Source: a virus. From it: a stretch of DNA of 25,122 bases. The stretch spans positions 1 to 25,122 of IMG/VR virus record IMGVR_UViG_3300004278_000015, one strand, 5' to 3'. Of this stretch, positions 1 to 24,917 are shown one piece after another. Every line of letters starts with the position of its first letter. The stretch's first letter is position 1. Position numbers and translations under genes: made by a program. Under the pieces are notes generated by a model. The model was not told where the DNA came from. It saw only the letters and a program-made list of their open reading frames with translations, and searched no databases.

Positions 1-33
1 TCTGTTGTTTTTACTTAACTTACGACATTTCAT
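1..33 (-). CDS. possible start of next gene, cut by window edge
   Basis: An ATG at 33-31 opens a frame of eleven codons (starting MKCRKLSK) that stays open to the window edge. The same frame upstream, back to a TAG, reads CCRQCC just before the ATG, so the region is cysteine-rich and could belong to a small zinc-knuckle protein with an unusual start. The Shine-Dalgarno match is weak. The only support is the frame and its position just after the previous gene in the same direction. It could equally be non-coding. Confidence 0.2.
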   Translation of the reverse strand, partial: MKCRKLSKNNR

Positions 34-88
34 GCAACACTGCCTGCAACAATTTCTTCTCTAAAATGTGTCAAATTAATCAAATTGA

Positions 89-367
89 TCAAATCTGACA
101 GTTTTGATTTTTTTGCTCAGCAGATATGGACTGGTGTAACATTACAAGATAGCCTATTGCACTGATGATTTTGTCGTTTGCCCTTTGGTTCAGTCCATTG
201 CTATGCAATTCTATGGCTTCCAATAATCGCACATCTATATGGCACATTTTAACATGTACTGGATCATCTAATTTATCACAATCATATGTCCCATTCACCA
301 CCTGATTATCAAAATTATTTTTTATTGCAGGCAGAACTACCTGTTGCAAGTGATATAATTTACCCAC
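89..367 (-). CDS. hypothetical small protein
   Basis: A 92-residue protein that I do not recognise. No ATG fits the start. A GTG at 367 sits 5 nt after a perfect AGGAGG, and a TTG one codon further upstream is the alternative. It overlaps the end of the sulfotransferase-like gene by 8 bp, so the two are probably translationally coupled. The sequence looks mostly helical, with a hydrophilic middle (YDCDKLDDP) and an Asn/Gln-rich end. It has two cysteines and one histidine-rich patch but no clear metal site, signal peptide or membrane segment. Its place at the end of the base-modification cassette suggests a role there, but nothing in the sequence proves it. Confidence 0.6.
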   Translation of the reverse strand: MGKLYHLQQVVLPAIKNNFDNQVVNGTYDCDKLDDPVHVKMCHIDVRLLEAIELHSNGLNQRANDKIISAIGYLVMLHQSISAEQKNQNCQI

Positions 368-1133
368 CAATGCCTCCTGCTGTTACTAGATTTTTATCAA
401 TTACACTTTTATTCAATTCCATCCCTACAAATAATTCTAGCCCTTGGATGTTCCCTTCCTGCAATTCCTTGAAATCTACATAAAATACATTTTTGCAATG
501 TTGGGTAACACTATTGATGGCAGATCCGTATATATCACAATACTTTTTAAATGATGTAAAATCATTAACATAATGGTCACCATACACTATGGATCTATTG
601 AAAATAGATCCATATATATTTTGCATTGATGCATATGTTGCATCAGGATGTCTTTGTGTAATAATAATTTTGTGATATTTTAAATTCCACTGGCCTAGTG
701 TAAAAGGAAATCTAACATCTTTGATTGCCCATGGCTGATTCAGGTTGTTGTAGCAAAATTCTATGTAATTTCTGTGTTGTGTCAATTGTTCCAATGTTCG
801 GAAATGAGCCATATTCCAGTTATCTCTTCTGGTATAGTCATTTACCATAGGGATAGCCTCATAATAATCCTGTTCGTGTAGCGGAAAGTCCCCATCTACA
901 TCATAAGGTTGCAGGAATGATGAATATGGCACATTTGCCCTCATGAGCTGGTCATTTATTTTTATTATATTCCTGACCTCAAAATATCCCTTTTTATTGT
1001 ACTCATCCTTTCCCATCATTTTGAAAATTCCACCAGCATCTAAATTCCAGCCTGCATCTGACAGCAGGTTTGTGACCAAAGATGTGCCTGTTCTAGGCAT
1101 CCCCATGATTATTATGTTGTTATTGTATTCCAA
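360..1133 (-). CDS. sulfotransferase-like P-loop protein
   Basis: A 257-residue P-loop transferase. The N-terminal motif GMPRTGTS (residues 11-18) is the phosphosulfate-binding loop typical of sulfotransferases. Around 137-169 come IKDVR and RHPDATYAS, which resemble the second nucleotide-binding motif of that fold (IKDPR, RxP...S). The family moves a sulfuryl group from PAPS, but P-loop proteins of this type also include kinase-like enzymes in phages. The start is a TTG at 1133, 4 nt after AAGGAGG. The first ATG would fall at residue 10, inside the beta strand leading to the P-loop. It overlaps the kinase gene by 22 bp. In the modification cassette it could modify a base or be the 5-hydroxymethyl-dU DNA kinase. 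The family call is fairly sure, the substrate is unknown. Confidence 0.7.
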   Translation of the reverse strand: MEYNNNIIIMGMPRTGTSLVTNLLSDAGWNLDAGGIFKMMGKDEYNKKGYFEVRNIIKINDQLMRANVPYSSFLQPYDVDGDFPLHEQDYYEAIPMVNDYTRRDNWNMAHFRTLEQLTQHRNYIEFCYNNLNQPWAIKDVRFPFTLGQWNLKYHKIIITQRHPDATYASMQNIYGSIFNRSIVYGDHYVNDFTSFKKYCDIYGSAINSVTQHCKNVFYVDFKELQEGNIQGLELFVGMELNKSVIDKNLVTAGGIGG

Positions 1134-1660
1134 CTTGCCTCCTTATATATTTTTTCCACTTGCATTTGTGGTGTTTTGCCTGCAATGTTTTTCAAAATCT
1201 CCACCTGAGCACCTAGTGTTTTCAATTCTAGTATCCATTGGTTATATAAATTATTTATATCACCCATTGATGAAGGAGAAAATCTGTTAATCCTTGTTCT
1301 TTTACATTTCTCAAGATCTCTTTTCATAAAATAACACACAGAATCTACAGGCAAAATGCTGTGCACCCAATATTCCAGCATATCATGTGCATGCAAATGT
1401 GATAATTTACCATGATAAATTTGATAAATTATGACAGACAATAGAGATCTGTCAAGTATTATATCACAATTTAATATTCGAGCCATATCAGTAACAGTAA
1501 GGTCTATGATAGGCTCATCCCATCCCTTAATATTCTGGTGTAATAACCATAATTTATGGTAAATCATAGGCTTCATATATGGTATTCCACTGTGTTTAGA
1601 TAATTCCTTTGCGAATGTAGTTTTGCCAGATCCATCAAGTCCTTCAAATATGATCAACAT
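1112..1660 (-). CDS. dTMP-kinase-like deoxynucleoside monophosphate kinase
   Basis: A 182-residue kinase of the thymidylate kinase type. It opens directly into the Walker A motif GLDGSGKT (residues 7-14), has the DR motif (ILDRSLLS, D70-R71) and an Arg-rich lid (KRTRINRF). The family phosphorylates dTMP or a related dNMP with ATP. An ATG at 1708 would add 16 residues that lie inside the upstream gene. The ATG at 1660 follows AGGA and puts the P-loop at the normal place, so I chose it. It overlaps the PLP-enzyme gene by 7 bp. Beside a ThyX-like protein and a dUTPase, the likely substrate is dTMP or 5-hydroxymethyl-dUMP, as for the hmdUMP kinase induced by SPO1-like phages. That substrate is inference. 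An alternative is a DNA-level hydroxymethyl-dU kinase. Confidence 0.8.
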   Translation of the reverse strand: MLIIFEGLDGSGKTTFAKELSKHSGIPYMKPMIYHKLWLLHQNIKGWDEPIIDLTVTDMARILNCDIILDRSLLSVIIYQIYHGKLSHLHAHDMLEYWVHSILPVDSVCYFMKRDLEKCKRTRINRFSPSSMGDINNLYNQWILELKTLGAQVEILKNIAGKTPQMQVEKIYKEASWNTITT

Positions 1661-2766
1661 GGGTATATCTTCCTGTATGCTGAGAAAGCACGGCCAAGGC
1701 CTAAACATATAAGATCAAATTCAACATCAGTAATATTAAAATTCCACGCCATTATTATCCAATCTTTTTGTAGCACAGGCAATATTATACCTGCATCGTC
1801 AAGTTGTGCCTGCATTATTTTTGAATCACACATAATTCCAACCAAATTCCCTTCTCCCATGGGGATAAATTTATATTTTTGTGCAATGTTCTTGACAGCT
1901 TCATTTCTAGCTTTCACTGTTGGCAGATGCCTCTTAATTTCCTTGATAACATTAAGTGTCCAGTGTAAATCTTTCTCCCTTCCTGAGTAGGTAGAAAAGT
2001 GATCACCAACTTTCATTACTTGCCCTGCTCTCTCATTTATGCAAGTCAATGCTACACCTTTGCCTGCAGAAATTCCTTTGGCCAGAGCGCACATATCAGG
2101 CTTTATATCCCATGATTCATGAGCAAATATATTAGTGCCCCATCTTCCTGCTCCAACTTTTATTTCATCAAGTCCTAGCAGGACATCATATTTGTTTCTA
2201 GCCACATTGATGCCGTCCCAGAATGAATCAGTGTAAGGCATAATTTTATGGTGGGTGAAAACTGTAGCCAGCAAGATCCCTCCACAATCATCTTTGATTT
2301 CTGATGGTAATGAAAAGAATTTCACCCATGGCAATAATGGTTCAAAGCCAATCCGGTTATGTGTATCTGTTACTGATAAACTTCCCAATGTCCTGCCGTG
2401 GAATCCATCTCTGTAAGCATATATAAATTTGTCATCCCTGCCATTATCAACCATGTGTTTTCTCATGATTTTTATCATGACTTCCACTGATTCTGATCCA
2501 CTGCCTGACATCCATATATATGGAAATCCTAGAATTTCAGATAATTGCTCATAGTCTTTTTCACGTGTACTGCTAGTGTACATTAATGGCATAAAATTAG
2601 GTCTTGTCAATGGCATTCTCATTTTTGGATAATATCCCAAACTCAAAATACCAGCATCATTGAAAAGATCATACATCACTCTGCCATCTATATCCATTAC
2701 AGCTAGGCTATTATCTACATATATAGGAAATATTTTAGCATATGGATTTACCATGGGTAACATCAT
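1654..2766 (-). CDS. class III PLP-dependent aminotransferase-like enzyme
   Basis: About 370 residues of fold-type I, aminotransferase class III (ornithine/acetylornithine aminotransferase group). Visible motifs are SGSGSESVEVMIK (phosphate-binding area), FHGRTLGSLS (FHGRT block), LGLDEIKVGAGRWG (the DE pair that holds the PLP pyridine nitrogen) and ALAKG, whose lysine near residue 230 forms the Schiff base. Odd: the block normally reading EPIQGEGG is replaced by ATVFTHHKI, and the STFGGNP block is changed to STYSGREKD, so substrate or chemistry probably differs. The ATG at 2766 overlaps the ThyX stop (ATGA); a GTG at 2781 is possible. Hypermodified-thymine phages use PLP enzymes to process amino acids attached to the base, which fits this cassette, but a role in cofactor or polyamine metabolism is also possible. 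Confidence 0.8.
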   Translation of the reverse strand: MMLPMVNPYAKIFPIYVDNSLAVMDIDGRVMYDLFNDAGILSLGYYPKMRMPLTRPNFMPLMYTSSTREKDYEQLSEILGFPYIWMSGSGSESVEVMIKIMRKHMVDNGRDDKFIYAYRDGFHGRTLGSLSVTDTHNRIGFEPLLPWVKFFSLPSEIKDDCGGILLATVFTHHKIMPYTDSFWDGINVARNKYDVLLGLDEIKVGAGRWGTNIFAHESWDIKPDMCALAKGISAGKGVALTCINERAGQVMKVGDHFSTYSGREKDLHWTLNVIKEIKRHLPTVKARNEAVKNIAQKYKFIPMGEGNLVGIMCDSKIMQAQLDDAGIILPVLQKDWIIMAWNFNITDVEFDLICLGLGRAFSAYRKIYPC

Positions 2767-3623
2767 AATTCGATCCCCCACATCTCACCATATAATTCCT
2801 TGCGTTCATGGAATTCTCCTACATCTTCCATTGGATATGGTTTGTGATTTTCCTGTAAATATAAAGGACAGGCGTGATGGCAATCAGATCCATCCACTCT
2901 GCGTTCATTCTCTAGTTTATATACACAAGTCTTAAAACAACTATTATCCATACACGGTGGTTGTGCTATATCCCTGAAGGCCGGATGGATCTTGGTTGCT
3001 AGTTCATTAATAATTCCGTGGATAATAGGAAACCACAAACCTGCCTGTAAAATCCAGCAGGATCTCTTGCCCATGATATGCTGAATAGAACAGAGATTTA
3101 ATGCCCAGCTGATCCTGTGCTGTGCTCCTAGTGGAATCATTTCCCTAGCATCTTCAATTGGAATGCGAGTTTTCCAATTATTGTATCTATCCTGTGCCTC
3201 AAGCATATCAGCATCCCACTCTTGCTTTTGCCTTCGTGTTAATCCATCAGGAATTCTGTAAGCCCCATAATCAGCAAACTTTCCCATGTCCTGAATTCTC
3301 ATACTCTGTGACCAGAATGTTGATGTATGGAGATCCGGTACAATATCAACTCCGATATTATCACCAACTTTCGTGCCGATGCGATGTCTCACCATTTGTT
3401 CCCTGAAAGATACAGAAACATTTTCAAGCATGAACACAAAAGATATATGCTCACCCACCGGAATATTCTGGGCAATTACTTTCTTAAATACTGGAAGGGC
3501 ATCCTTGATATTCACTTGATTAACATCCAGTAAGGGATCTTCATTTTTACTTGCTTCCCACAAGGCATATACTGTCTCAATTGGTTTATTTGACCATGAC
3601 ATTAATGTTACTTTTGGCTTCAT
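2763..3623 (-). CDS. thyX: divergent flavin-dependent thymidylate synthase (ThyX) with Cys-rich C-terminus
   Basis: A 286-residue ThyX homologue. ThyX makes dTMP from dUMP with FAD, NADPH and methylene-tetrahydrofolate. Seen: VGEHISFVFMLENVS and REQMVRHRIG (RHR at 79-81) match the family, SQSMRI (105-110) matches the later part of the ThyX signature, and EDAREMIPLG plus NLCSIQHIMGKR match the C-terminal core. Odd points: RHR and SxSxR are separated by about 22 extra residues instead of the usual short RHR(x7)S spacing, and residues 224-252 carry five cysteines (C-x4-C-x3-C-x14-C-x3-C) that could bind zinc or a cluster. The start ATG follows AAAGGAG and overlaps the upstream stop by 4 bp. The neighbours suggest it may be a dUMP hydroxymethylase instead of a methylase. 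The family is sure, the altered reaction is a guess. Confidence 0.88.
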   Translation of the reverse strand: MKPKVTLMSWSNKPIETVYALWEASKNEDPLLDVNQVNIKDALPVFKKVIAQNIPVGEHISFVFMLENVSVSFREQMVRHRIGTKVGDNIGVDIVPDLHTSTFWSQSMRIQDMGKFADYGAYRIPDGLTRRQKQEWDADMLEAQDRYNNWKTRIPIEDAREMIPLGAQHRISWALNLCSIQHIMGKRSCWILQAGLWFPIIHGIINELATKIHPAFRDIAQPPCMDNSCFKTCVYKLENERRVDGSDCHHACPLYLQENHKPYPMEDVGEFHERKELYGEMWGIEL

Positions 3624-4525
3624 TTTATCTCCTTTAGTGATTTGATTCTTGTAATATTTTCATGTTGGCAATTTTGGTTATATATTTTATCTACTAAATA
3701 CACTTTATAGCCTAGATTGGCAATGTTAATAGCAAATTTCGGGTTGTCCTCAACCATATAATCTATGTTTGGAAAATCCTTGATGACAGAATAATTTTTA
3801 TCTTCATCCCAGATGATAGCATCATATTGTAATTCACCATCTTTCAACCATTCCATAGTATCGGCAAAGATCCGGCTGTATTGCTTGTAAGGCCTACTGG
3901 TGAGCAGAATTATAGTTTTGCCTGCTTGTTTCTGCCTATCCAGAAAGTCTTTGGCACCATCACAAATAGGAATGTATCTTTTCTGGCCTGTATCTCTATA
4001 TTCATGTTTCAAAGCAATCATTTTATCCCATGACAGTACCTTAGCATATTCTTCATATAAGTCATAGGTTGTTATATCAATCCACACACCTGTTTGTTCC
4101 TTAATAAAATTTTGAAAGGCAATAGGATAATCACCAAGGACACCATCGATATCCACCGCAATACAATTGATATCTTCAAGTAAATTCAATTCCAATTCCT
4201 GCTTATATCTTTGCTCGCAAACTGCTGATTTTCTGAAATATTCACTATTGAAATGTTCTGGCTCCCAATCCCACAATATCCCTATGCTCAACCAGTATTT
4301 GAAAATGTCAATCCACTCCTCTTTCAGATTGCTGTAAATTACCTTCCTGTTACCTCTGTGAGTCTTGAAATTTATCTCACGCAATAGTTCGTGGATCTCA
4401 CCCTGTAATTGAAGGCAATATTCTTTGGTAATTTTTTGCCTTTCCTCATCAGTTACCTCATCATATTTTACAAAATTCTTATTGAACAATTTTTGATCAT
4501 GCCAAATTTGTTTCAAGTCAACCAT
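3620..4525 (-). CDS. MazG-type dUTPase fused to HAD-family phosphatase
   Basis: A 301-residue two-domain protein. Residues 1 to about 100 look like an all-alpha NTP pyrophosphatase of the dimeric dUTPase/MazG group: the metal-binding ExxE (EIHE, 43-46) and ExxD (EWID, 70-73) are present with the typical phage sequence LLREINFK between them. Residues about 120-301 are a HAD hydrolase: nucleophile motif VDIDGV (D125, D127), motif II LLTSRP (T209), a lysine near 243 and VEDNP (258-262). The first domain would turn dUTP (or dTTP) into the monophosphate, and the second could dephosphorylate a deoxynucleotide such as dTMP. Thymine-replacing phages such as SPO1 have both activities as separate steps. 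The start follows TAGGAG, and the gene overlaps both neighbours by a few bases. Domain calls are strong, substrates inferred. Confidence 0.82.
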   Translation of the reverse strand: MVDLKQIWHDQKLFNKNFVKYDEVTDEERQKITKEYCLQLQGEIHELLREINFKTHRGNRKVIYSNLKEEWIDIFKYWLSIGILWDWEPEHFNSEYFRKSAVCEQRYKQELELNLLEDINCIAVDIDGVLGDYPIAFQNFIKEQTGVWIDITTYDLYEEYAKVLSWDKMIALKHEYRDTGQKRYIPICDGAKDFLDRQKQAGKTIILLTSRPYKQYSRIFADTMEWLKDGELQYDAIIWDEDKNYSVIKDFPNIDYMVEDNPKFAINIANLGYKVYLVDKIYNQNCQHENITRIKSLKEIK

Positions 4526-5369
4526 AAATAATTTCTCCTATGTTTTTTGTTATATTCTCATATACATCAGTAATGAGCACTTTGGGATCCCACTGGGCAT
4601 ATCTACCAAAAAAGTAAATGCCTTGTTTCCTCATAGCAATACTAAACAAATTCAAGTGTTCTTGTTGCTCAGTATTGATGCGGATCTTGCCTGGAAAAAT
4701 TTTATGGTAAAATCCTTTTGCTTGCTCTAGGGATTCTGTTACCACTTCACATTTTTCATTGTGATATGTCTTACGATAGTAATGTACAGCAGGATCAGGG
4801 AAATATTCAAGGGTGATGCTATTATCATTGTGAGTCCTGAAACCATATTCTGTCTTGGTAAAAATAGGCCTATAATCAAAAGTGCATCGGCCTTCACCAG
4901 ATATGTTCATAAATATTGGCATGGCTATGGTGGATATTAATTTATCATATTTTATGTCATCCCCATCTTTAATCTTTATAACCTTATTGTAAATATTAAT
5001 ATCTGTAATATCAGATGATAACCTGATAGATGGGGAACATTTACTGATCATTTCTAAAATATCCAGATTATATCCTTCACATTCGGTAACTTTTAAACTT
5101 ACATCTTGGATCTGATCATAAACTTTCATTGAGTATTTTTTCTCAGGATCTTTAATGTTTCCATTTACAATCCACCTCACTAAAAATTTATTTTCCTTTG
5201 GTGTTAATTTATCATTAAGATATTCATGACAATAGAATGATGCTGACATATTAGAGAATGACAAATTGTGCCTTTTCTCTAGGATGATAATATCTTGAGT
5301 TGCCCCATATGCCTGTAGCATATATCCGGTCATCAATCCAGAAAGTCCACCACCCAGAATTGCTATCAT
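4518..5369 (-). CDS. FAD-dependent oxidoreductase (amine oxidase / UGM-like)
   Basis: A 283-residue flavoprotein. It begins with a Rossmann dinucleotide-binding motif (IAILGGGLSGLMTGYML, GxGxxG variant at 6-11, followed by the acidic ILEK at the end of strand 2). The C-terminal IYFFGRYAQW, followed by an Asp/Tyr helix, resembles the FAD-contacting end of the amine oxidase and UDP-galactopyranose mutase group. KYDKLISTIAMP is the usual domain-crossing segment. It is short for that group (normally 370 or more), so the substrate domain is reduced. The start ATG follows GAGGAGG and begins right after the MCM-like gene stop. FAD-dependent enzymes acting on amino-acid adducts are part of known thymidine hypermodification pathways, so a DNA- or nucleotide-level role is possible. 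The exact reaction cannot be read from the sequence. Confidence 0.72.
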   Translation of the reverse strand: MIAILGGGLSGLMTGYMLQAYGATQDIIILEKRHNLSFSNMSASFYCHEYLNDKLTPKENKFLVRWIVNGNIKDPEKKYSMKVYDQIQDVSLKVTECEGYNLDILEMISKCSPSIRLSSDITDINIYNKVIKIKDGDDIKYDKLISTIAMPIFMNISGEGRCTFDYRPIFTKTEYGFRTHNDNSITLEYFPDPAVHYYRKTYHNEKCEVVTESLEQAKGFYHKIFPGKIRINTEQQEHLNLFSIAMRKQGIYFFGRYAQWDPKVLITDVYENITKNIGEIIYG

Positions 5370-6671
5370 TTAAAATACCTCCTCATCACCAAAATCTGAC
5401 ACTGGCAATGTAATTTTACCTGACATCACATCCCGTAAAAAAGTGATAAATGCAGGTGTTTTTTTATACAAAGATGAATTGACTTTTATCAATGCTCTCT
5501 GATGCCTCAATACTTTTAGAATATCCTTTGCATTTAGTCGATCCCCCACCATGTCCTCAACATCTCCTAGATTCAACACTTCAGAATCCATGAACATGTC
5601 CACTGTCTTTCTAGGGATAATTTTCTTGACTTCCTCAACATCTCTCAGCACCAGCATCTCATTTTGTTTTTTTGCCCACTCATCATACCTCATCGATGAC
5701 TTAGAATAGCACTTTTCAAGAAAGTGATATGCAAATTCAGCATGCTCAGGATATACCATGACTCTTTCCCCATCCTCAGAACAGGAGAAAAATCGACAAG
5801 CAACAGCAACAGCCATCTTTGCCAATTTGATTCGTTGTTCCGCTGGCTCTACTATGGGAATGCCACTGTTATATTTCTTTCCCTGTGTAGATGCATAGTC
5901 AAGTATTGCTTGTGTGGCTTTAGCACCAATAATAACATCAGATGGTGTTCTTGACCATGCCCACAATATAAGATCCCTGTACAGCCTTTGCTTGATCTTT
6001 ATTTTCTGTTGTCGCTTCACAGCTTTATTATACACATCAGATTCAACATCACCAGATGCTGAAGTAATAACAATATCAAATCTACTTATATCTTCAGGCC
6101 TTCCTATTAATTCCCTGACAGACAATACACCATAGGTGTAAGTTTGCATTGGCTGACCTCTTCTGGCGTTTGATATCCAAATTAATCTAGTCCTTGCCCT
6201 TGTCTTTTCCATTTGAATTTTAATAATCTCTGCTATGCCTGTGGATCTTATTCCTGACATCATAGATATTTCATCAATAGATAGGCCGGATGCCTCATCC
6301 AACACAAATAATCTCCGGTCATTCAAAGGGATCTTGCCCCATTGTATATTCCACCGCTTATTTACTTGGGATAATCCACCGACTAATCCAGCAAATGTGG
6401 ATGATTCTCCTGTGCCCATTTCACCAAGTTTATAAAAATCCATAAGGCCTTTTACAGTGGCTGTTTTCCCTGTCCTAGTATCTCCAAGTATTAAGGCCTC
6501 AAGATAACCCTTCAGCACCATCCGGCCTTGAAATTCAAATCTCAATACAGAATGATAAACCAGATCCACAGTCAGCAGGAGATCCTGCCGTTCATTTATG
6601 CCAGTAATGATCTCAAGGTCACTGGCAATATCTTTATATTTTGAAATTAGTTGTTCAGTTTTTGTTAACAT
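5370..6671 (-). CDS. MCM-like AAA+ replicative helicase, ATPase half
   Basis: A 433-residue AAA+ protein. Walker A is GDTRTGKT (63-70), Walker B LFVLDEA (121-127), sensor 1 LIWISN (N168) and the MCM-type arginine finger GRPEDISRFDIV (R197), which parallels the LSRFD motif of MCM proteins. These motifs identify a DNA-unwinding hexamer of the MCM-like type found in phages and mobile elements. No N-terminal zinc/OB region is present: the protein starts at the linker (KYKDIASDLEIITGINERQD). Matching N-terminal features sit at the C-terminus of the primase gene at 7344-8891. It overlaps the YopX-like gene by 17 bp and has only a weak Shine-Dalgarno, suggesting coupling. After the AAA+ core comes a helical tail (about 330-433) that may be a winged-helix-like end. 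Confidence 0.85.
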   Translation of the reverse strand: MLTKTEQLISKYKDIASDLEIITGINERQDLLLTVDLVYHSVLRFEFQGRMVLKGYLEALILGDTRTGKTATVKGLMDFYKLGEMGTGESSTFAGLVGGLSQVNKRWNIQWGKIPLNDRRLFVLDEASGLSIDEISMMSGIRSTGIAEIIKIQMEKTRARTRLIWISNARRGQPMQTYTYGVLSVRELIGRPEDISRFDIVITSASGDVESDVYNKAVKRQQKIKIKQRLYRDLILWAWSRTPSDVIIGAKATQAILDYASTQGKKYNSGIPIVEPAEQRIKLAKMAVAVACRFFSCSEDGERVMVYPEHAEFAYHFLEKCYSKSSMRYDEWAKKQNEMLVLRDVEEVKKIIPRKTVDMFMDSEVLNLGDVEDMVGDRLNAKDILKVLRHQRALIKVNSSLYKKTPAFITFLRDVMSGKITLPVSDFGDEEVF

Positions 6672-7056: not shown

Positions 7057-7341
7057 TTAAAATGGTATGTCATCATCTATTGCTGTACCACTATCAGGCA
7101 CCAATCTATTACCTTCATAATGGTATCCATCCGGTGGTGGTGGATTAGATTCTCCATTCTTCTCTTTTCTTTCTGGATTAGTTACATACACAATATAATC
7201 CGGCTGATTATCTGACTTTTTGTATCCATTTTCAAACACTAGCATTTTAGCATCACCCATTTTCCCTGATAGCATTTTCTTGCCTTCTCCGGTTTTGCTA
7301 ACCCACAAGGCACCAATTTTTACTAGCTTATCTTTTGGCAT
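7057..7341 (-). CDS. SSB-like protein with acidic C-terminal tip
   Basis: A 94-residue protein. The N-terminal 55 residues (LVKIGALWVSKTGEGKKMLS ... AKMLVFENGYKK) look like a short beta-barrel repeat. A proline-rich, flexible linker (SNPPPPDGYHYEG) follows, and the protein ends in IDDDIPF, which matches the conserved acidic tip through which bacterial SSB proteins bind primase, Pol III and recombination factors. By analogy it may coat single-stranded DNA at the phage fork or recruit host SSB partners. An ATG at 7347 overlaps the primase stop, but the ATG at 7341 has AAGGAG 7 nt upstream, so I prefer it. The core is too short for a classic SSB OB fold (about 110 residues), so it may be a minimal version. 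The tip is clear, the ssDNA binding is inferred. Confidence 0.65.
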   Translation of the reverse strand: MPKDKLVKIGALWVSKTGEGKKMLSGKMGDAKMLVFENGYKKSDNQPDYIVYVTNPERKEKNGESNPPPPDGYHYEGNRLVPDSGTAIDDDIPF

Positions 7342-7343
7342 TA

Positions 7344-8891
7344 TCATTCTCCTTTTATTTGAAACACCTTAAGTGCTTTTTTTAATTTTGGATTCATTTT
7401 AAATGTATCAATTGAATCCTGTGCTTTCCTTGCCTCATGTATCATATGAGTGGCATATTGAGTTTTGGGATCTGGTATTGTAATTCCCTTAAATACATAT
7501 ACCTTATTGCTTTCAATTCCATGGCCAATAAAAAATGCTTGCCTCACGACATATTTTTGTTCATCATTCTGATAGTCTATATCAGGGATGAGTCGGATCT
7601 CCTCAACATTCTTGGCCACCAATACCTCTGAATTGTACCTACTACAAGTTGATACAATTCCGGCTGTTTTACGGATATATAAATCTAATTCCTTTTTTGT
7701 GACTTGAATCATTTCTAGGATCTGCGTGGTGTTTAAATCAAAGGAAATATTTTTTCTGCCGTTAGCCAATCCCACTGGGCAGTAATGGCATTTTTTATCA
7801 AAGTCCTGATCACATGTAAAACAGATTTTTTGTGGAACTAAATATGGTGATAGATCCTTGCCAGCAACAAGCACTTTCATTTCAAAATGTTTAAAATAAT
7901 TTTTTGCTTCTGATGCCTCAGCTAATGGAGTTTCAATATAATTATTTATCACATCCTCATCTACTTCAGCAAGATATGGTTTTGTATTCTGGATCAGTGT
8001 CTTGAATTCTACAGATGTTTTTCCGTGGGTGATAAAATAATCTGTAACATCTCCATTATCAGGCTCTGTTATAGGTAGTTCCATTACATAAAGATTTTTA
8101 CAAACATCTTTTAAATAATCTGCTATCTTAAGAGATCCTGATTTGCCTTTCTCATCTATATCAAAACATATATATACAGTCTTTTGCTCGAACAATTTTG
8201 TCCAGAATGACTTCCAGATCCCTGCTCCAGATGTTACTGTAATGGCCGGAATTCCTAATTGGTTCAAAAGCATACAATCCATCTCACCTTCACACAGTAC
8301 AAGTGACGGCAGGTTCACATTCTCATATGGGAATAATTTTGCCTCACCATATCCGGCACCATAGGATTTGAATTTATCTCCTTTTGTGGTAGTCGGTGAA
8401 TATTTCCTGATATTTATACAATGTCCAAATTCATCGAATATCGGTATAGTATATCTGTTGTAGTGATAGCCTAGCCGGAATTTTTCAATAGTATCAATAT
8501 TGATACCACGCTTTGCTTGGAGATATTCCACAGCTTTGCTATTATTCAGTAGTGCTTCATGGTAGGATTCAACCTCACTAATATCTATTGTTTTCTTTGT
8601 TTTTTTCTTTGGCTGTAGGCCTAATTTATTGATAATAAATTGCTGTGCCTCATCTTTTGATAAATTCTCTGCCTTCTGGATAAATGTGAATATATTTCCT
8701 GATCCGCAATTTGAAAAACAATGCCATTGGCCTGTAGTTAAATTGTATGTGAAGGAAGGTGTTTTATCAGTATGGAAAGGGCACATGGTAGATACTTCTG
8801 TTGGGGATACTTTTGTTTGCTTTCCTTTGAAATAGTCCCCATAAAAAATCTGGTAGTGAATTACACTATTAATCTTGTCAATCAATTCCAT
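7344..8891 (-). CDS. DnaG-type primase (CHC2 + TOPRIM) with MCM-N-like C-terminus
   Basis: A 515-residue primase. The CHC2 zinc finger has C37, H40, C58 and C62 (CPFH ... CFSNC, with one extra residue in the last pair). The TOPRIM domain shows LVLCEGEMD (E201, D205), FDIDEKG (D244, D246) and DVTDYF (281-286). It would make RNA primers at the phage fork. From about 320 onward it leaves the DnaG pattern: SPYLVPQKICFTC ... CHYCPVG (C357, C360, C368, C371) is a second zinc site, and near the end GITIPDPKTQ and SIDTFKMNPKLKKALKVFQ resemble the N-terminal half of phage MCM-like helicases. The ATPase half of such a helicase lies two genes downstream. The start ATG follows AAAGGA. No DnaB-binding domain of the DnaG type is seen. 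Confidence 0.87.
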   Translation of the reverse strand: MELIDKINSVIHYQIFYGDYFKGKQTKVSPTEVSTMCPFHTDKTPSFTYNLTTGQWHCFSNCGSGNIFTFIQKAENLSKDEAQQFIINKLGLQPKKKTKKTIDISEVESYHEALLNNSKAVEYLQAKRGINIDTIEKFRLGYHYNRYTIPIFDEFGHCINIRKYSPTTTKGDKFKSYGAGYGEAKLFPYENVNLPSLVLCEGEMDCMLLNQLGIPAITVTSGAGIWKSFWTKLFEQKTVYICFDIDEKGKSGSLKIADYLKDVCKNLYVMELPITEPDNGDVTDYFITHGKTSVEFKTLIQNTKPYLAEVDEDVINNYIETPLAEASEAKNYFKHFEMKVLVAGKDLSPYLVPQKICFTCDQDFDKKCHYCPVGLANGRKNISFDLNTTQILEMIQVTKKELDLYIRKTAGIVSTCSRYNSEVLVAKNVEEIRLIPDIDYQNDEQKYVVRQAFFIGHGIESNKVYVFKGITIPDPKTQYATHMIHEARKAQDSIDTFKMNPKLKKALKVFQIKGE

Positions 8892-9227: not shown

Positions 9228-10061
9228 TTAAAATACCTCTACAGGATTACCATCAATCCCAGTATCTTCTGTCATCTCATCTTTGGTATGCTTATCATCT
9301 TGAAAGTCAATAGTCATATCCTTAAGCATATCCCAGACTTTTTCAGCATCAGCATATTCTTCAGCAGTCAACAGTCCGGCTAACTTTGTGGTGAGAACAT
9401 AATATGTTCCTTTGTCATTTTTCTCCTTTTTTGTCTCCAACAAATAAGGTCTAGCGAAAATATCACCACCACTGAATTTGGCCATGTTTGCCAACTCTTT
9501 TCCAGCATTGGAACTAGTGTTCATAAATGATACAGCAACAATTTTATTACCTATATCCTTGGCTGATAATCCCAATACTACAGCAGGGAAAGTGTAGATC
9601 AAAGTACATGCTGGTGGGACACTATTTTCCTTGTCATCCTTAGTCCATTTACTCTTGGGACATCTCCTACATGAATCAGCAATCATATCACCCATATCAG
9701 GCTGTTTTGAATTCATTGAACCACAGATAATTCCGCCACCATCACTTCTGTCTTTCCAGTAGATCCGTCTTTTTTTGAACATGATAGGGATGAATTTTAA
9801 TTTATCCCCATAATTGTATCCTGATAGTGAATTCAGTAGATCTCCCTTGCCGGCAGTTTCAACAAATTTAGGATCATCTTCATCGATCTCAGGGGATAAT
9901 GGTTGCATCATTTTTACATATGGTACTATGTAATCATCGGCATCCATCTCATCAAATCCTCTGCCAGATCCTGTGGATGGTACTATGGCACCAGCAGGTA
10001 TCCCTTCTACCAATTCCAGTTCATCTTTTTTCTTTGTTAGGTCTGTTGACTTTTTTGTCAT
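9228..10061 (-). CDS. phage protein with Cys cluster, possible ssDNA-binding protein
   Basis: A 277-residue acidic protein, probably cytoplasmic. After a Lys/Glu-rich N-terminus it has DDYIVPYVKMMQPLSPE and GDKLKFIPIMFKKRRIYWKD, a layout I associate with a common phage family that sits beside recombination and replication genes and is often proposed to bind ssDNA. Cysteines at about 113, 131, 134 and 152 (C-x17-C-x2-C-x17-C) could form a zinc site. The C-terminus is very acidic (DEMTEDTGIDGNP), as in many ssDNA-binding proteins. The start ATG follows GAGGAG and overlaps the upstream stop (ATGA). A strong hairpin directly follows. The function is inferred from layout and context, not from a clear signature. 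Confidence 0.55.
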   Translation of the reverse strand: MTKKSTDLTKKKDELELVEGIPAGAIVPSTGSGRGFDEMDADDYIVPYVKMMQPLSPEIDEDDPKFVETAGKGDLLNSLSGYNYGDKLKFIPIMFKKRRIYWKDRSDGGGIICGSMNSKQPDMGDMIADSCRRCPKSKWTKDDKENSVPPACTLIYTFPAVVLGLSAKDIGNKIVAVSFMNTSSNAGKELANMAKFSGGDIFARPYLLETKKEKNDKGTYYVLTTKLAGLLTAEEYADAEKVWDMLKDMTIDFQDDKHTKDEMTEDTGIDGNPVEVF

Positions 10062-10552
10062 TTTGACTTCTCCTCTTTCATTTTGTTTCTGAATGTTGTG
10101 GACACTGTACTCTTGATTTTGGCCTTAGTACCATGCCCTAATCCAGGTGGGGTGAAACCATTTTTGATTACAAATTCTCTGAATGGTGTCACATTGATTT
10201 GCTTTCTTAAGAATTCCCATGCTTGAGACTTTACTGCCCATTTGACAAATTGGTTGAATCCACCTGTCTCATCATCAAATGTAGAATATAATTCTGTTTC
10301 TCTTTTGTGAGATCCGAATGCTGTGGTGATTTTCTCATCATCCTCCTCCATTCCTAGATCATCCATGATTTTCATGATCTCCCAATGCCATTTATCAATA
10401 GCCTTGTTATTGGCCTTTACTCTAGTATTGAGATCTGTATTTTCCAATTTAGCCAAGCAGATTTTCTCTGATAAAATCTTGAGCAGATCCTTGTCTGAAT
10501 TGTTTATTACATCCTCTATTGGGACAGGTTTGGTAGTTTGTTCCTGTTGCAT
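10058..10552 (-). CDS. conserved-looking phage protein, partner of downstream gene
   Basis: A 164-residue protein that I cannot name. The first half is helical and probably coiled-coil (ILSEKICLAKLENTDLNTRVKANNKAI). The middle has a beta-like part (ITTAFGSHKRETELYSTF), then an amphipathic helical part and VTPFREFVIKNGFTPPG, close in style to small phage proteins that end in a basic tail and are encoded just before a ssDNA-binding or recombination gene. Here the stop overlaps the start of the 277-residue gene by 4 bp, so the two are surely co-translated. The start follows AAGGAG. A role in recombination or replication is context-based inference. Confidence 0.6.
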   Translation of the reverse strand: MQQEQTTKPVPIEDVINNSDKDLLKILSEKICLAKLENTDLNTRVKANNKAIDKWHWEIMKIMDDLGMEEDDEKITTAFGSHKRETELYSTFDDETGGFNQFVKWAVKSQAWEFLRKQINVTPFREFVIKNGFTPPGLGHGTKAKIKSTVSTTFRNKMKEEKSK

Positions 10553-22325: not shown

Positions 22326-23795
22326 TTAATATGCCTGATTTTGATCTCTGAAAACATTGAATGGATTAGCATTTGCCATCTTAATGACAAATTCAGGATA
22401 TGGGGATGATAATTTCACATATGTCCCAAGATCCTCTGCGTGCATTGCTGGGATCTCTGATGGTATTAAGGCCTTCCAACTTACTGCTTGGGTGATTATT
22501 CCTGCTCCACTGGTTGGTGCTCCAACCCCTGTAATTGTCATACTGGGAATGAATAATGATAATTCTCTAGCCCCCACCCCAACAATAGCAGATCCCTGAA
22601 ATTGAAGATTACACATCAGCTCAGTTTTATTGGCTCTGTAATTTATCCAAGTATCAGCAGTGTATCTTGGCACTGTAAATGTCCCTGTTACTGTTCTGAA
22701 ATTGTCCCTTGCTGGTGCTGATCTGTATGTGCCTGATATAGAGTCTTGATCATCGCCATTTAGGTTGTTATTGACCTCTATGCTGAATGCTGATATGCTG
22801 ACTTTATCATCATTATCAAATACTGTGGAGGCATGGAATGTAGCAACCCAGATAGTGAGATCATTGAACATAACTTTCTCTAGCAGTTCAGTTTGAGTTT
22901 GATCCCCTGAAGCATAATTTAGAGCCCACGCTGTAGATACTGTATTTTGTCCTGTATCACTAGTATCTAAATCAAATGGTAGCATATCAAAACCAAATTT
23001 CAATGACTCTCCGGCATTCCCTGAAATATTCATAGTGTTGACCATTGAAGATCTGAATATCCATAGTGAAGCAGTCTTATCAAATCCCAGTGTTCCACGC
23101 CTTATGATCTTATCACTAGCAGTACCAACACCACCAGTAGGATAGGATGCATATGCTGTAGTCCATAATTCATCACATAAATTATTAGATACTTCATACC
23201 AAGCATTCCATGCATTGTGAATTTCAAAGGAATCATCATCAGGGATAACTGTCCAATTTGGGGCTGTTGCAACTTCTGCTGTGGATGTAAATGAACTGAT
23301 AATTCTGACTTGCCCTTCACCGGCACCGGCAGTAATTCTTACATATTTACCTACATCTCCAGCCACGAACGGTGTGGTGGTAGCAAAGACATTTGCATTT
23401 GTCTGCCCTCCACCGATAGTTTCACAAACACCCTGAACAATACTTGCCGGCAAAGCTGACGGTGTTGCTGGATTAATAAATCCCATAGCACAACCAACCA
23501 AAGCAGATAGGCCATCATATGTTCCTACACATGATAAACTTCCTGATGGCTTAATTCCTGTAAGGTCTAAAGATGTTTCACCAGCAACACCTATTACAGT
23601 TTGATCTGCTTCAAAATTATGTTCTTCATCGATGCCTTCAGATTCCAAAGGGAAAAGATCACTGCCCCCCAATGGCACCTCTTCTGTGTCTGCTGTGGCT
23701 GTAGATGTTGGATAGGCACTGGTGTCTATTCCTAGTTGACCACCTTCAACTCTGAAGGCACTTTTCGTATTAAAACCCTGTGCTGGATTAGCCAT
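22326..23795 (-). CDS. tail tube-like protein, large paralogue with inserted module
   Basis: A 489-residue virion protein related to the next gene upstream. Shared blocks: SMTISGNA/TMNISGNA, an aligned SAFS(L/I)xxNNNL block, PRYTADT, and ITGVGAPTSGAGIITQAVS against ITGVGAPVSGPGIVTQTIS. Such beta-rich blocks and the place before the tape measure fit a major tail tube protein. It is about 125 residues longer than its partner. About 70 of these (124-194, TPFVAGDVGKYVRITAGAGE then GQVRIISSFTSTAEV) are an insertion whose pattern matches the repeated module of the tail-tip protein. The start ATG follows AAAGGG. It may be the main tube, or a special ring at the tip or neck. Confidence 0.72.
   Translation of the reverse strand: MANPAQGFNTKSAFRVEGGQLGIDTSAYPTSTATADTEEVPLGGSDLFPLESEGIDEEHNFEADQTVIGVAGETSLDLTGIKPSGSLSCVGTYDGLSALVGCAMGFINPATPSALPASIVQGVCETIGGGQTNANVFATTTPFVAGDVGKYVRITAGAGEGQVRIISSFTSTAEVATAPNWTVIPDDDSFEIHNAWNAWYEVSNNLCDELWTTAYASYPTGGVGTASDKIIRRGTLGFDKTASLWIFRSSMVNTMNISGNAGESLKFGFDMLPFDLDTSDTGQNTVSTAWALNYASGDQTQTELLEKVMFNDLTIWVATFHASTVFDNDDKVSISAFSIEVNNNLNGDDQDSISGTYRSAPARDNFRTVTGTFTVPRYTADTWINYRANKTELMCNLQFQGSAIVGVGARELSLFIPSMTITGVGAPTSGAGIITQAVSWKALIPSEIPAMHAEDLGTYVKLSSPYPEFVIKMANANPFNVFRDQNQAY
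23214..23426 (-). repeat. tail module repeat, copy 4 (in tail tube-like protein)
   Basis: Protein-level repeat, residues about 124-194 of the large tail tube paralogue: FVAGDVGKYVRITAGAGEG, then QVRIISSFTSTAEV and SFEIHN. The small paralogue lacks it, so it is an insertion. Confidence 0.5.
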
Positions 23796-23822: not shown

Positions 23823-24917
23823 TTATGACCAAAGAACAGCAGATCTTTCATCATCAGTATCAATCCCAAATTCTGTACTCACCACTGTTGAATTATCTTG
23901 AAATAATGTAATAGAATGAGAAGGTACAAGACATTTCAAGGATATTGTTTGAGTCACAATTCCTGGCCCACTTACTGGAGCACCTACCCCAGTGATTTGT
24001 GCTTCTGGTATATAAATATGAAACTCTTTTGAATCGGCAGTTCTAACAAAATGGAATTCCAATTGCAACCTAGTCCCATTAGATCTCCAATCCAAATAAG
24101 TATCTGCTGTATATCTTGGAATTGTCAATTCACAAGTAACTTCTCTCATGCCATTTTGTACTGGCTCAAGAGTTTTCATTATCTCTGTGTGAGTTGTAGG
24201 ATCTATTGTTGCCTGCTCAGGTTCAGTGAGATTATTATTCAATGTTAATGAAAAGGCAGAAATGTTTTTACCATCTCCGGCAATAAGAGCATTTGCTGTA
24301 TCTCCGATATAAAAAGCAAGATCAGTCCACATGACCTTATCAGCAACACCAGCCATTGTAGTCCTTAAGGATGCCAGATTTGCTTGAGTATTAACTCCTG
24401 ATGAGGTGTTTCTATCCTGCTCATAGCCAATCACATCAGCAGATACATTTAGACCTTCCTTAGCATTCCCTGAGATAGTCATAGAGTTGACATAACATCC
24501 GTGATTTTCCCAAAGTGCAACAGACTTTTCTATTGCTATTGTAAGCAGTGCTCTGTTAGCATCAGCACAAAAACCTGTTTTATCAAGCAGGAATTGGAGA
24601 TCACCAGATCCAGCATCCCATGTACCACCTTGCCCCATGCCAGCACCAATCAATAATGTAGATCCCTTGAATGTGGATGATACTTTTTCATTATATAATA
24701 TCGGAATATCAATATTGCCCACAACAGGTTCAAAGACCTTATCTGTATCAACAATACCAGCATTCCCTGCTAAATATTCAGCATCTACAAACTCAGGATC
24801 TTCTGTTATTGATTCTGAATTGAATGGTACTAAATCTGTTGCTTGGATTGGCGTGGCCAGAGCAGTTTGTCTTGCCATCCCGCATATTCCATTAAAACCT
24901 TGTCCTGTGCCTGACAT
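23823..24917 (-). CDS. tail tube-like protein, small paralogue
   Basis: A 364-residue protein with no signal peptide. It shares the PRYTADTYLDWRSNGT block, the NNNLTEPEQATID region and the ITGVGAPVSGPGIVTQTIS end with the 489-residue neighbour. This looks like duplication of a tail tube gene. It has ATG 24917 with AAAGGG upstream, and the stop lies 27 bp before the next start. Both proteins are probably tube or tube-like rings. A head-tail connector role is an alternative for one of them. Name based on position and duplication, not on a motif-level match. Confidence 0.72.
   Translation of the reverse strand: MSGTGQGFNGICGMARQTALATPIQATDLVPFNSESITEDPEFVDAEYLAGNAGIVDTDKVFEPVVGNIDIPILYNEKVSSTFKGSTLLIGAGMGQGGTWDAGSGDLQFLLDKTGFCADANRALLTIAIEKSVALWENHGCYVNSMTISGNAKEGLNVSADVIGYEQDRNTSSGVNTQANLASLRTTMAGVADKVMWTDLAFYIGDTANALIAGDGKNISAFSLTLNNNLTEPEQATIDPTTHTEIMKTLEPVQNGMREVTCELTIPRYTADTYLDWRSNGTRLQLEFHFVRTADSKEFHIYIPEAQITGVGAPVSGPGIVTQTISLKCLVPSHSITLFQDNSTVVSTEFGIDTDDERSAVLWS

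Follow-up and report, generated by a model that had tools for sequence, protein, structure and literature searches.

A divergent ThyX and its coupled partner genes in an uncultured phage form a likely cassette for a modified deoxyuridine

Why would a phage keep a flavin-dependent, ThyX-like thymidylate synthase in one run of genes with a phosphatase, a pyridoxal 5'-phosphate (PLP) enzyme and a second flavoprotein? The question is raised by IMGVR_UViG_3300004278_000015, a 25,122-base phage fragment whose whole IMG/VR record was analysed here (the window). On its minus strand, from 5369 to 89, seven open reading frames (ORFs), each abutting or overlapping the next, encode in DNA order a flavin adenine dinucleotide (FAD) protein, a dUTPase fused to a HAD phosphatase, the ThyX-like protein, a class III PLP enzyme, a kinase, a sulfotransferase-like protein and a small protein (Table 1). 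A preliminary description of this DNA, made from the letters alone, had proposed seven consecutive coupled genes serving a modified deoxyuridine. All seven are indeed there, and a ThyX-centred cassette of this kind is now the best explanation, because the gene order is conserved, the ThyX has lost residues that handle folate, and there is a link to Bacillus phage SP-15. We consider it likely that this is a modified-deoxyuridine cassette, and give a probability of roughly 0.6 to our main reading, that it makes a 5-substituted deoxyuridine nucleotide which replaces some or all of the thymidine during phage DNA replication.

The argument turns on the ThyX-like protein. It matches Pfam Thy1 (PF02511) with E 2e-15 and 57.5 bits against a curated cut-off of 24.8, and scores 43 against NCBIfam thyX, below the cut-off of 87.9. 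Its AlphaFold2 (AF2) model, with a predicted local distance difference test score (pLDDT) of 81.8, is nearest in fold to T. maritima ThyX (1o27, E 5e-9), and SP-15 gp130 is among its fold matches in a viral library. H53 is replaced by N, N85 by W, E86 by S and Y91 by I, while Q75, R78, S88, R90, R147, R174 and Q180 are retained; the motif RHR...NExSxRY, taken together with H53 and Y91, is thus incomplete, although RHR, S88 and R90 are present. An 18-residue insertion within this motif is shared by a clade comprising the window and the loci L028 and L069 (L-numbers label the phage loci compared), whereas the ThyX proteins of Listeria phage LIS04, the Vibrio phages and the ordinary group lack it.

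The same substitutions run through a larger group. When aligned with T. maritima ThyX, the cassette-type proteins, 27 in number, have without exception lost H53 and Y91. The 11 ordinary ones, namely the T. maritima enzyme and ten from phages with SP-15 gp9 among them, have all kept both, so that two residues separate the two kinds. Both are also lost in four further isolates: Pbunavirus Ab27, Carpasinavirus FoX7, Streptomyces phage Dryad and Gordonia phage GretelLyn. N85 occurs in none of the 27, which is weaker evidence because this position varies among ordinary enzymes too. R90 and R174 are kept throughout (27/27), and S88 is Ser or Thr in 25 of 27. Search patterns could bias such counts; ours excluded H53 and Y91, and L074, L075, L081, L082 and L097 were found without any ThyX information. 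In a phylogenetic tree the ordinary enzymes form one clade (99/98) with the others outside it, although the deep branches are weak and that of SP-15 gp130 is very long.

In T. maritima ThyX, Y91 and N85 hold H53, which stacks on the folate pteridine, and mutation of Y91 alters the flavin site and lowers flavin oxidation about 1000-fold (PMC11940539). Y91 and S88 also aid attack on a flavin carbinolamine, for whose formation formaldehyde can stand in for methylene-folate (PMC8316439). With the dUMP contacts R90 and R174 retained and H53, N85 and Y91 gone, binding of deoxyuridine monophosphate (dUMP) appears preserved, whereas the handling of folate appears lost. From these substitutions we infer that cassette-type ThyX would treat folate unlike the ordinary enzyme, and non-canonical handling of the carbon donor seems to us slightly the better bet. 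In the ThyX of L048, L052, L056, L038 and L016, as in SP-15 gp130, the first motif lacks RHR; the five metagenomic proteins carry a second RHR-like stretch (e.g. LRAQIVRHRELQF) within a long insertion. Their active sites may therefore be rearranged.

Is the gene grouping more than an accident of one contig? Related loci were found with hand-built codon patterns for the ThyX motif RxxWIxQAxLW, the phosphatase and the FAD protein. Scanning viral contigs for ThyX and dUTPase-HAD with a single protein or with two rows brought up a twin contig alone, and in a scan of genome contigs for WIxQAxLW none of the nine stretches found matched the ThyX profile. The closest counterpart is L028 (IMGVR_UViG_3300028920_000055), a 90-kb contig in which the FAD, dUTPase-HAD, ThyX, PLP and kinase genes stand in the window's order at 26-38% identity (ThyX 38%); retention of this order at such distances indicates that the grouping is more than chance. 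L028 differs from the window in that a DnaE polymerase follows the cassette, no sulfotransferase adjoins it and the dUTPase half lacks the ExxE motif, which the window protein retains together with ExxD and DxDG. The same phage has, at a distance of about 10 kb from the cassette, another sulfotransferase-like gene (L098:1832-2407), judged by eye to hold an HPRSGT motif. A search for a ThyA-type enzyme (PF00303), made in the L028 contig only, gave no match; fragments such as the window and the compared contigs cannot prove the absence of a gene.

Comparison of neighbourhoods, which the preliminary description had called for, also showed that the partners recur beyond L028. The phosphatase pattern alone led to nine further loci, and in all eight that were long enough a FAD homolog lies directly upstream. 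Overall, FAD homologs stand directly upstream of dUTPase-HAD, or adjoin or lie near ThyX, in L028, L074-L078, L080-L082, L004 and L005, and the FAD-protein pattern added further FAD-phosphatase pairs, including L112, L114 and L120. The FAD/dUTPase-HAD pair is accompanied by two short-chain dehydrogenases/reductases (SDRs) and ThyX in L074, L081 and L082 (L077 lacks the ThyX end), by an SDR and ThyX in L075, by an SDR, a PLP enzyme and a kinase in L076, and by a kinase, with ThyX further along, in L080/L097. A fused primase-MCM gene precedes the FAD gene in L074, L076, L077 and L078. In a parallel set (L069, L070, L072, L059, L039, L048 and L056) ThyX stands beside varying combinations of nucleotide enzymes, namely a YfbR-type HD 5'-deoxynucleotidase, a nucleoside deoxyribosyltransferase, SDR, HAD and radical S-adenosylmethionine (SAM) proteins, mostly followed by PolA or DnaE.

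Some of these loci have features of their own. A deoxyribosyltransferase, a YfbR-like 5'-deoxynucleotidase and a DUF6378-like protein come just before ThyX and PolA in L069, L070, L072, L059 and L039, though not all three everywhere, and DUF6378 may have a role in thymine replacement. In L039 a radical SAM/SPASM protein is encoded directly upstream of the cassette-type ThyX (L039:881-1912). At L025:590-5463 (also L100) a cassette-type ThyX is flanked by three genes that look by eye like glycosyltransferases (one was tested against Pfam, with no match), along with a dCMP deaminase and an SDR, a setting that would suit glycosylation of the side chain.

These neighbourhoods bear on two other explanations. 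The plainest is an ordinary supply of thymidine monophosphate (dTMP), in which the dUTPase, ThyX and kinase lead to thymidine triphosphate (dTTP) and the FAD, PLP and sulfotransferase proteins belong to unrelated pathways, for example of surface sugars. Those three enzymes do constitute the normal dTTP pathway, and proteins like UDP-galactopyranose mutase or sulfotransferases can be sugar enzymes. However, a phosphatase fused to the dUTPase would oppose dTTP supply, the FAD gene stays beside dUTPase-HAD across distant phages, and Y91 is missing group-wide in spite of the cost of its mutation in T. maritima (PMC11940539). Furthermore, ordinary phage ThyX loci show none of the cassette partners: within the stretches read at nine of them there was no member of the FAD, dUTPase-HAD, SDR, PLP or kinase families. 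We therefore regard ordinary supply as quite unlikely. The second explanation, a weapon against nucleotide pools in which a modified deoxyuridine nucleotide or signal impairs DNA synthesis in the host or disables a defence system, could draw on the phosphatase, deoxyribosyltransferase and HD 5'-nucleotidase partners of related loci, all of which might serve sabotage. It is nevertheless highly improbable, since the cassette genes sit with replication genes (primase, MCM, PolA/DnaE) in nearly every locus read and since the modified base of SP-15, the sole chemically studied member, is part of the DNA in its virions (PMC5977210).

SP-15 ties the group to known chemistry. According to PMC5977210, about half of its thymine is replaced by dihydroxypentyluracil, which is formed before DNA synthesis; a 1978 paper cited there states in its title that label from ribose enters the base. 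In 2018 gp130 was proposed as the hydroxymethyluridylate synthase and gp9 as the thymidylate synthase (PMC5977210). The residue pattern fits this division of roles, as gp130 lacks H53 and Y91 and gp9 keeps both. Among the proteins encoded close to gp130, gp127 is a deoxyribosyltransferase, gp129 an SDR, gp134 a kinase and gp135 a HAD protein, and the last two match the window's kinase and HAD family profiles. An SDR together with a nucleoside 2-deoxyribosyltransferase occurs also in loci of the L048/L056 type. In SP-15 neither a FAD homolog nor a PLP enzyme was found, nor a dUTPase domain in fused form, and gp130 is so divergent that pairwise comparison with the window ThyX gives no significant similarity. 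The closest ThyX from an isolate is LIS04_124 of Listeria phage LIS04 (Thornevirus; E 5e-17), at the matching position in an SP-15 relative. LIS04 encodes a second annotated thymidylate synthase, LIS04_09, which is unlike ThyX and by eye of ThyA type; no dUTPase-HAD or FAD homolog was detectable in that genome.

The 2018 proposal for gp130 (PMC5977210) also lends support to a hydroxymethyl route, in which the ThyX-like enzyme would move one carbon from folate or formaldehyde and water would trap the methylene, giving 5-hydroxymethyl-dUMP (hmdUMP) to be phosphorylated, incorporated and decorated on DNA. The ordinary ThyX reaction does include an exocyclic methylene intermediate, and the enzyme accepts formaldehyde (PMC8316439). 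Yet the folate-stacking residues are gone from cassette ThyX, and the enzymes that would decorate such a base are missing: neither the 5-hydroxymethyldeoxyuridine (hmdU) DNA kinase HMUDK (PF18723) nor the amino acid:DNA transferase ADDT (PF18724) was found in the window fragment or in nine related records, SP-15, LIS04, VA-RY-3 and ECO71P1 among them, and both were found in the ViI and phiW-14 controls. We consider the hydroxymethyl route unlikely. That the cassette feeds the known route of phiW-14, ViI and M6 is not supported, HMUDK and ADDT being the marker enzymes of that route; the active site of ThyX suggests altered donor handling in place of hmdUMP formation; and an alpha-glutamyl/putrescinyl-thymine pyrophosphorylase (aGPT-PPlase), which might have lain to the left of the window, was considered and then dropped, as the best explanation does not require it. 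Modification by an enzyme of ThyX type is not an entirely new idea, given the 2018 proposal for gp130 (PMC5977210).

How, then, might a 5-substituted deoxyuridine nucleotide be made? Judging from its families, the dUTPase-HAD fusion would break down dUTP, and probably dTTP and dTMP as well, leaving dUMP and removing the competitor. The dUTPase half passes Pfam dUTPase_2 (E 2.4e-5, above cut-off), and the HAD half is NT5C-like through its L028 ortholog (NT5C, E 8e-9). The ThyX-like flavoenzyme, given its homology and its kept dUMP contacts, would use an adduct at flavin N5 to attach a carbon group at the C5 position of dUMP, and the loss of H53, N85 and Y91 implies that methylene-folate is probably not handled as in ordinary ThyX. 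The donor could be an aldehyde: flavin N5 would take up R-CHO, C5 of dUMP would attack, and reduction would give 5-CH2R-dUMP. We prefer an aldehyde because ordinary ThyX already accepts formaldehyde as the flavin carbinolamine, and such a product might match the saturated chain of the SP-15 base. The kinase would presumably phosphorylate the modified product to the diphosphate, and the polymerase would incorporate it; the kinase family also includes SP-15 gp134, SP-15 gp10 and LIS04_126. The mutase-like flavoprotein and the sulfotransferase-like protein might further alter or protect the added group. More broadly, we suggest, tentatively and as a possibility we would not quite bet on, that a widespread group of phage ThyX has switched donor, away from a single folate carbon, and couples aldehydes of varied length to C5 of dUMP by way of flavin N5, with swappable partners (class III PLP enzyme, dehydrogenases, deoxyribosyltransferase) that supply and finish the side chain.

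The source of the aldehyde may differ between phages. In the SP-15 type, dehydrogenases and the nucleoside deoxyribosyltransferase may supply one derived from deoxyribose. In the window, the class III PLP enzyme, which has semialdehyde-making relatives, could do so, although we hold a PLP-made donor to be doubtful. Its best solved relative is an acetylornithine aminotransferase (2eh6, E 3e-32), and it keeps the PLP lysine motif LAKG but has lost the C-terminal Arg of 'IRFLPPL' (the region reads WIIMAWNF in the window, VLKMAP in L028 and IKLTPP in L076). In the acetylornithine aminotransferase family this Arg binds the carboxylate of 2-oxoglutarate. Orthologs occur in L028 and L076; other matches in phage records are mostly weak and resemble bacterial DNA within those records.

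Cultured phages offer a hint of modified DNA. Pseudomonas phage JG024, a Pbunavirus, encodes a FAD homolog, a ThyX with H53I and Y91A, a HAD_PNKP phosphatase and DnaE (in L136, JG024 40000-66275, ThyX, PJG24_061, lies at 7236-8153 and the FAD homolog, PJG24_067, at 9368-10393). Its DNA is reportedly not cut by ScaI, NdeI or BsaI despite their sites and is cut by XbaI, and the authors suspected methylation (PMC10913387); DNA of a PB1-like phage is incompletely cut by EcoRI and HindIII (PMC3634792). No methyltransferase of the N6_N4 or D12 families was found in JG024. The resistance is suggestive of a modified base, though not proof. The related set in Pbunavirus is annotated as a plain thymidylate synthase and a hypothetical protein.

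Several points weigh against a cassette that replaces thymidine. XbaI (TCTAGA) cuts JG024, and EcoRI and HindIII partly cut the DNA of a PB1-like phage, so that a modification in these phages would have to be incomplete or tolerated, and JG024 may owe its resistance to methylation by the host. The JG024 region was read without finding a PLP enzyme or fused dUTPase, and its ThyX falls in a different clade. The SP-15 parallel is partial, as the window cassette has no SDR or deoxyribosyltransferase. Loss of the ThyX residues could reflect relaxed constraint or another mode of folate use, and a PLP enzyme without its C-terminal Arg makes ordinary transamination with 2-oxoglutarate doubtful. Finally, the source phage is an uncultured fragment.

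The family assignments of the preliminary description held, with Pfam support for all but the FAD and small proteins; the FAD protein was recognised through a profile, and the genes had been listed in an order other than that of the DNA. By itself the FAD protein gives weak Rossmann/DAO matches in Pfam, whereas its family profile finds UDP-galactopyranose mutases as the best solved structures (E 1.5e-5 and 2.9e-5); its AF2 model was poor (pLDDT 47) and was set aside. The FAD gene of Vibrio phage PVA7 is broken into two neighbouring ORFs (L111:7116-8007). A sulfotransferase shared with the Vibrio phage cassette was considered and dropped: direct comparison gave no similarity, leaving a coincidence at superfamily level, and the profile matches were circular because both proteins had been profile seeds. 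The small protein had no match in Pfam, PHROG or NCBIfam.

Table 1. Cassette genes, the ThyX insertion and the adjoining replication genes in the window
Position	Strand	Feature	Basis
89..370	-	small protein, 93 aa, no family	ORF, 11-b overlap with preceding gene
360..1133	-	sulfotransferase-superfamily protein, PRTGTS and RHPxxxxAS motifs	Sulfotransfer_3 E 6e-8
1112..1708	-	dTMP kinase / deoxynucleoside kinase-like P-loop kinase	Thymidylate_kin E 3.8e-6, just above cut-off
1654..2781	-	class III PLP-dependent aminotransferase-like enzyme, acetylornithine/ornithine aminotransferase branch	Aminotran_3 E 6e-32
2763..3623	-	divergent ThyX-like flavoenzyme, 286 aa, proposed dUMP C5-modifying	Pfam Thy1, AF2 model, residue alignment
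3321..3374	-	18-residue ThyX insertion, about residues 84-101, between RHR and S-x-R part of motif	alignment
3620..4525	-	dUTPase_2-type NTP pyrophosphohydrolase fused to NT5C-type HAD 5'-deoxynucleotidase, 301 aa	Pfam, ortholog, motifs
4518..5369	-	FAD oxidoreductase, UDP-galactopyranose mutase / amine oxidase superfamily, 283 aa	GxGxxG N-terminus; profile match
5370..6671	-	MCM-type replicative helicase, context	MCM E 2e-4, phrog_18685 E 8e-63; directly upstream of cassette
7344..8891	-	DnaG-type primase, replication module, context	Zn_ribbon_DnaG E 6e-14, Toprim

Shine-Dalgarno-like stretches precede the starts of the FAD, dUTPase-HAD, ThyX and sulfotransferase-like genes; the kinase probably starts at an ATG near 1660 instead of 1708, and the PLP enzyme probably at an ATG just inside 2781. 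The cassette follows directly downstream of the MCM gene, and the rest of the window holds a replication module (SNF2 helicase, primase, MCM helicase) and tape-measure and tail-tube genes. Within that module, 9228-10061 encodes a homolog of cyanophage Pam3 gp34 (Pfam Pam3_Gp34, E 6e-40), with homologs in L005 and L048. Two adjacent tail-tube-like genes (22326-23795 and 23823-24917) are seemingly related, the second alone passing Phage_tube_2. A second contig, L002, is identical to the window across 13.6 kb and ends 168 b beyond it, in a direct repeat: window 1-115 and L002:13676-13790 form an imperfect 115-b pair (spacing about 168 b, 96.5% identical). The repeat contains short ATTTGATCA repeats, and both contigs end inside it.

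The making of the five-carbon modified thymine of SP-15 has been a puzzle since the 1970s, and this analysis points to a ThyX without H53 and Y91. Cultured carriers include Pbunaviruses, which are studied for therapy, Wifcevirus, and Vibrio, Xanthomonas, Gordonia and Streptomyces phages, in most of which the genes are annotated as thymidylate synthase or hypothetical. If our reading is true, hundreds of sequenced phages may hold unrecognised modified DNA, with effects on restriction, CRISPR, cloning and sequencing, and ThyX would have acquired a new flavoenzyme activity that forms C-C bonds. If the donor switch is true, alkylation at C5 would be a general way of making modified thymines, and the origin of the dihydroxypentyluracil of SP-15 would be explained.

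Among known systems, phages phiW-14, ViI and M6 share the aim of a modified thymine and the use of PLP and FAD enzymes. Their route, however, begins with hmdU from a ThyA-type enzyme and is completed on DNA by HMUDK and ADDT, neither of which was found in the window. The sets of Vibrio phages vB_ValP_VA-RY-3 and PVA7, Wifcevirus, Pbunavirus and Carpasinavirus resemble the window in having a FAD gene adjacent to or near a ThyX without H53 and Y91, a HAD phosphatase and DnaE, but differ in their ThyX clade, in a separate HAD protein and in showing no PLP enzyme; those of Wifcevirus and Carpasinavirus have an SDR, unlike the window. LIS04_124 lacks the insertion but shares with the window ThyX the WIxQAxLW motif, a C-terminal extension and the loss of H53 and Y91. 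The SP-15 locus, gp127-gp135, has an SDR and a nucleoside 2-deoxyribosyltransferase that are not among the window's cassette genes; like the window, it sets a ThyX without H53 and Y91 close to a kinase and a HAD phosphatase, and its base is made at the nucleotide level.

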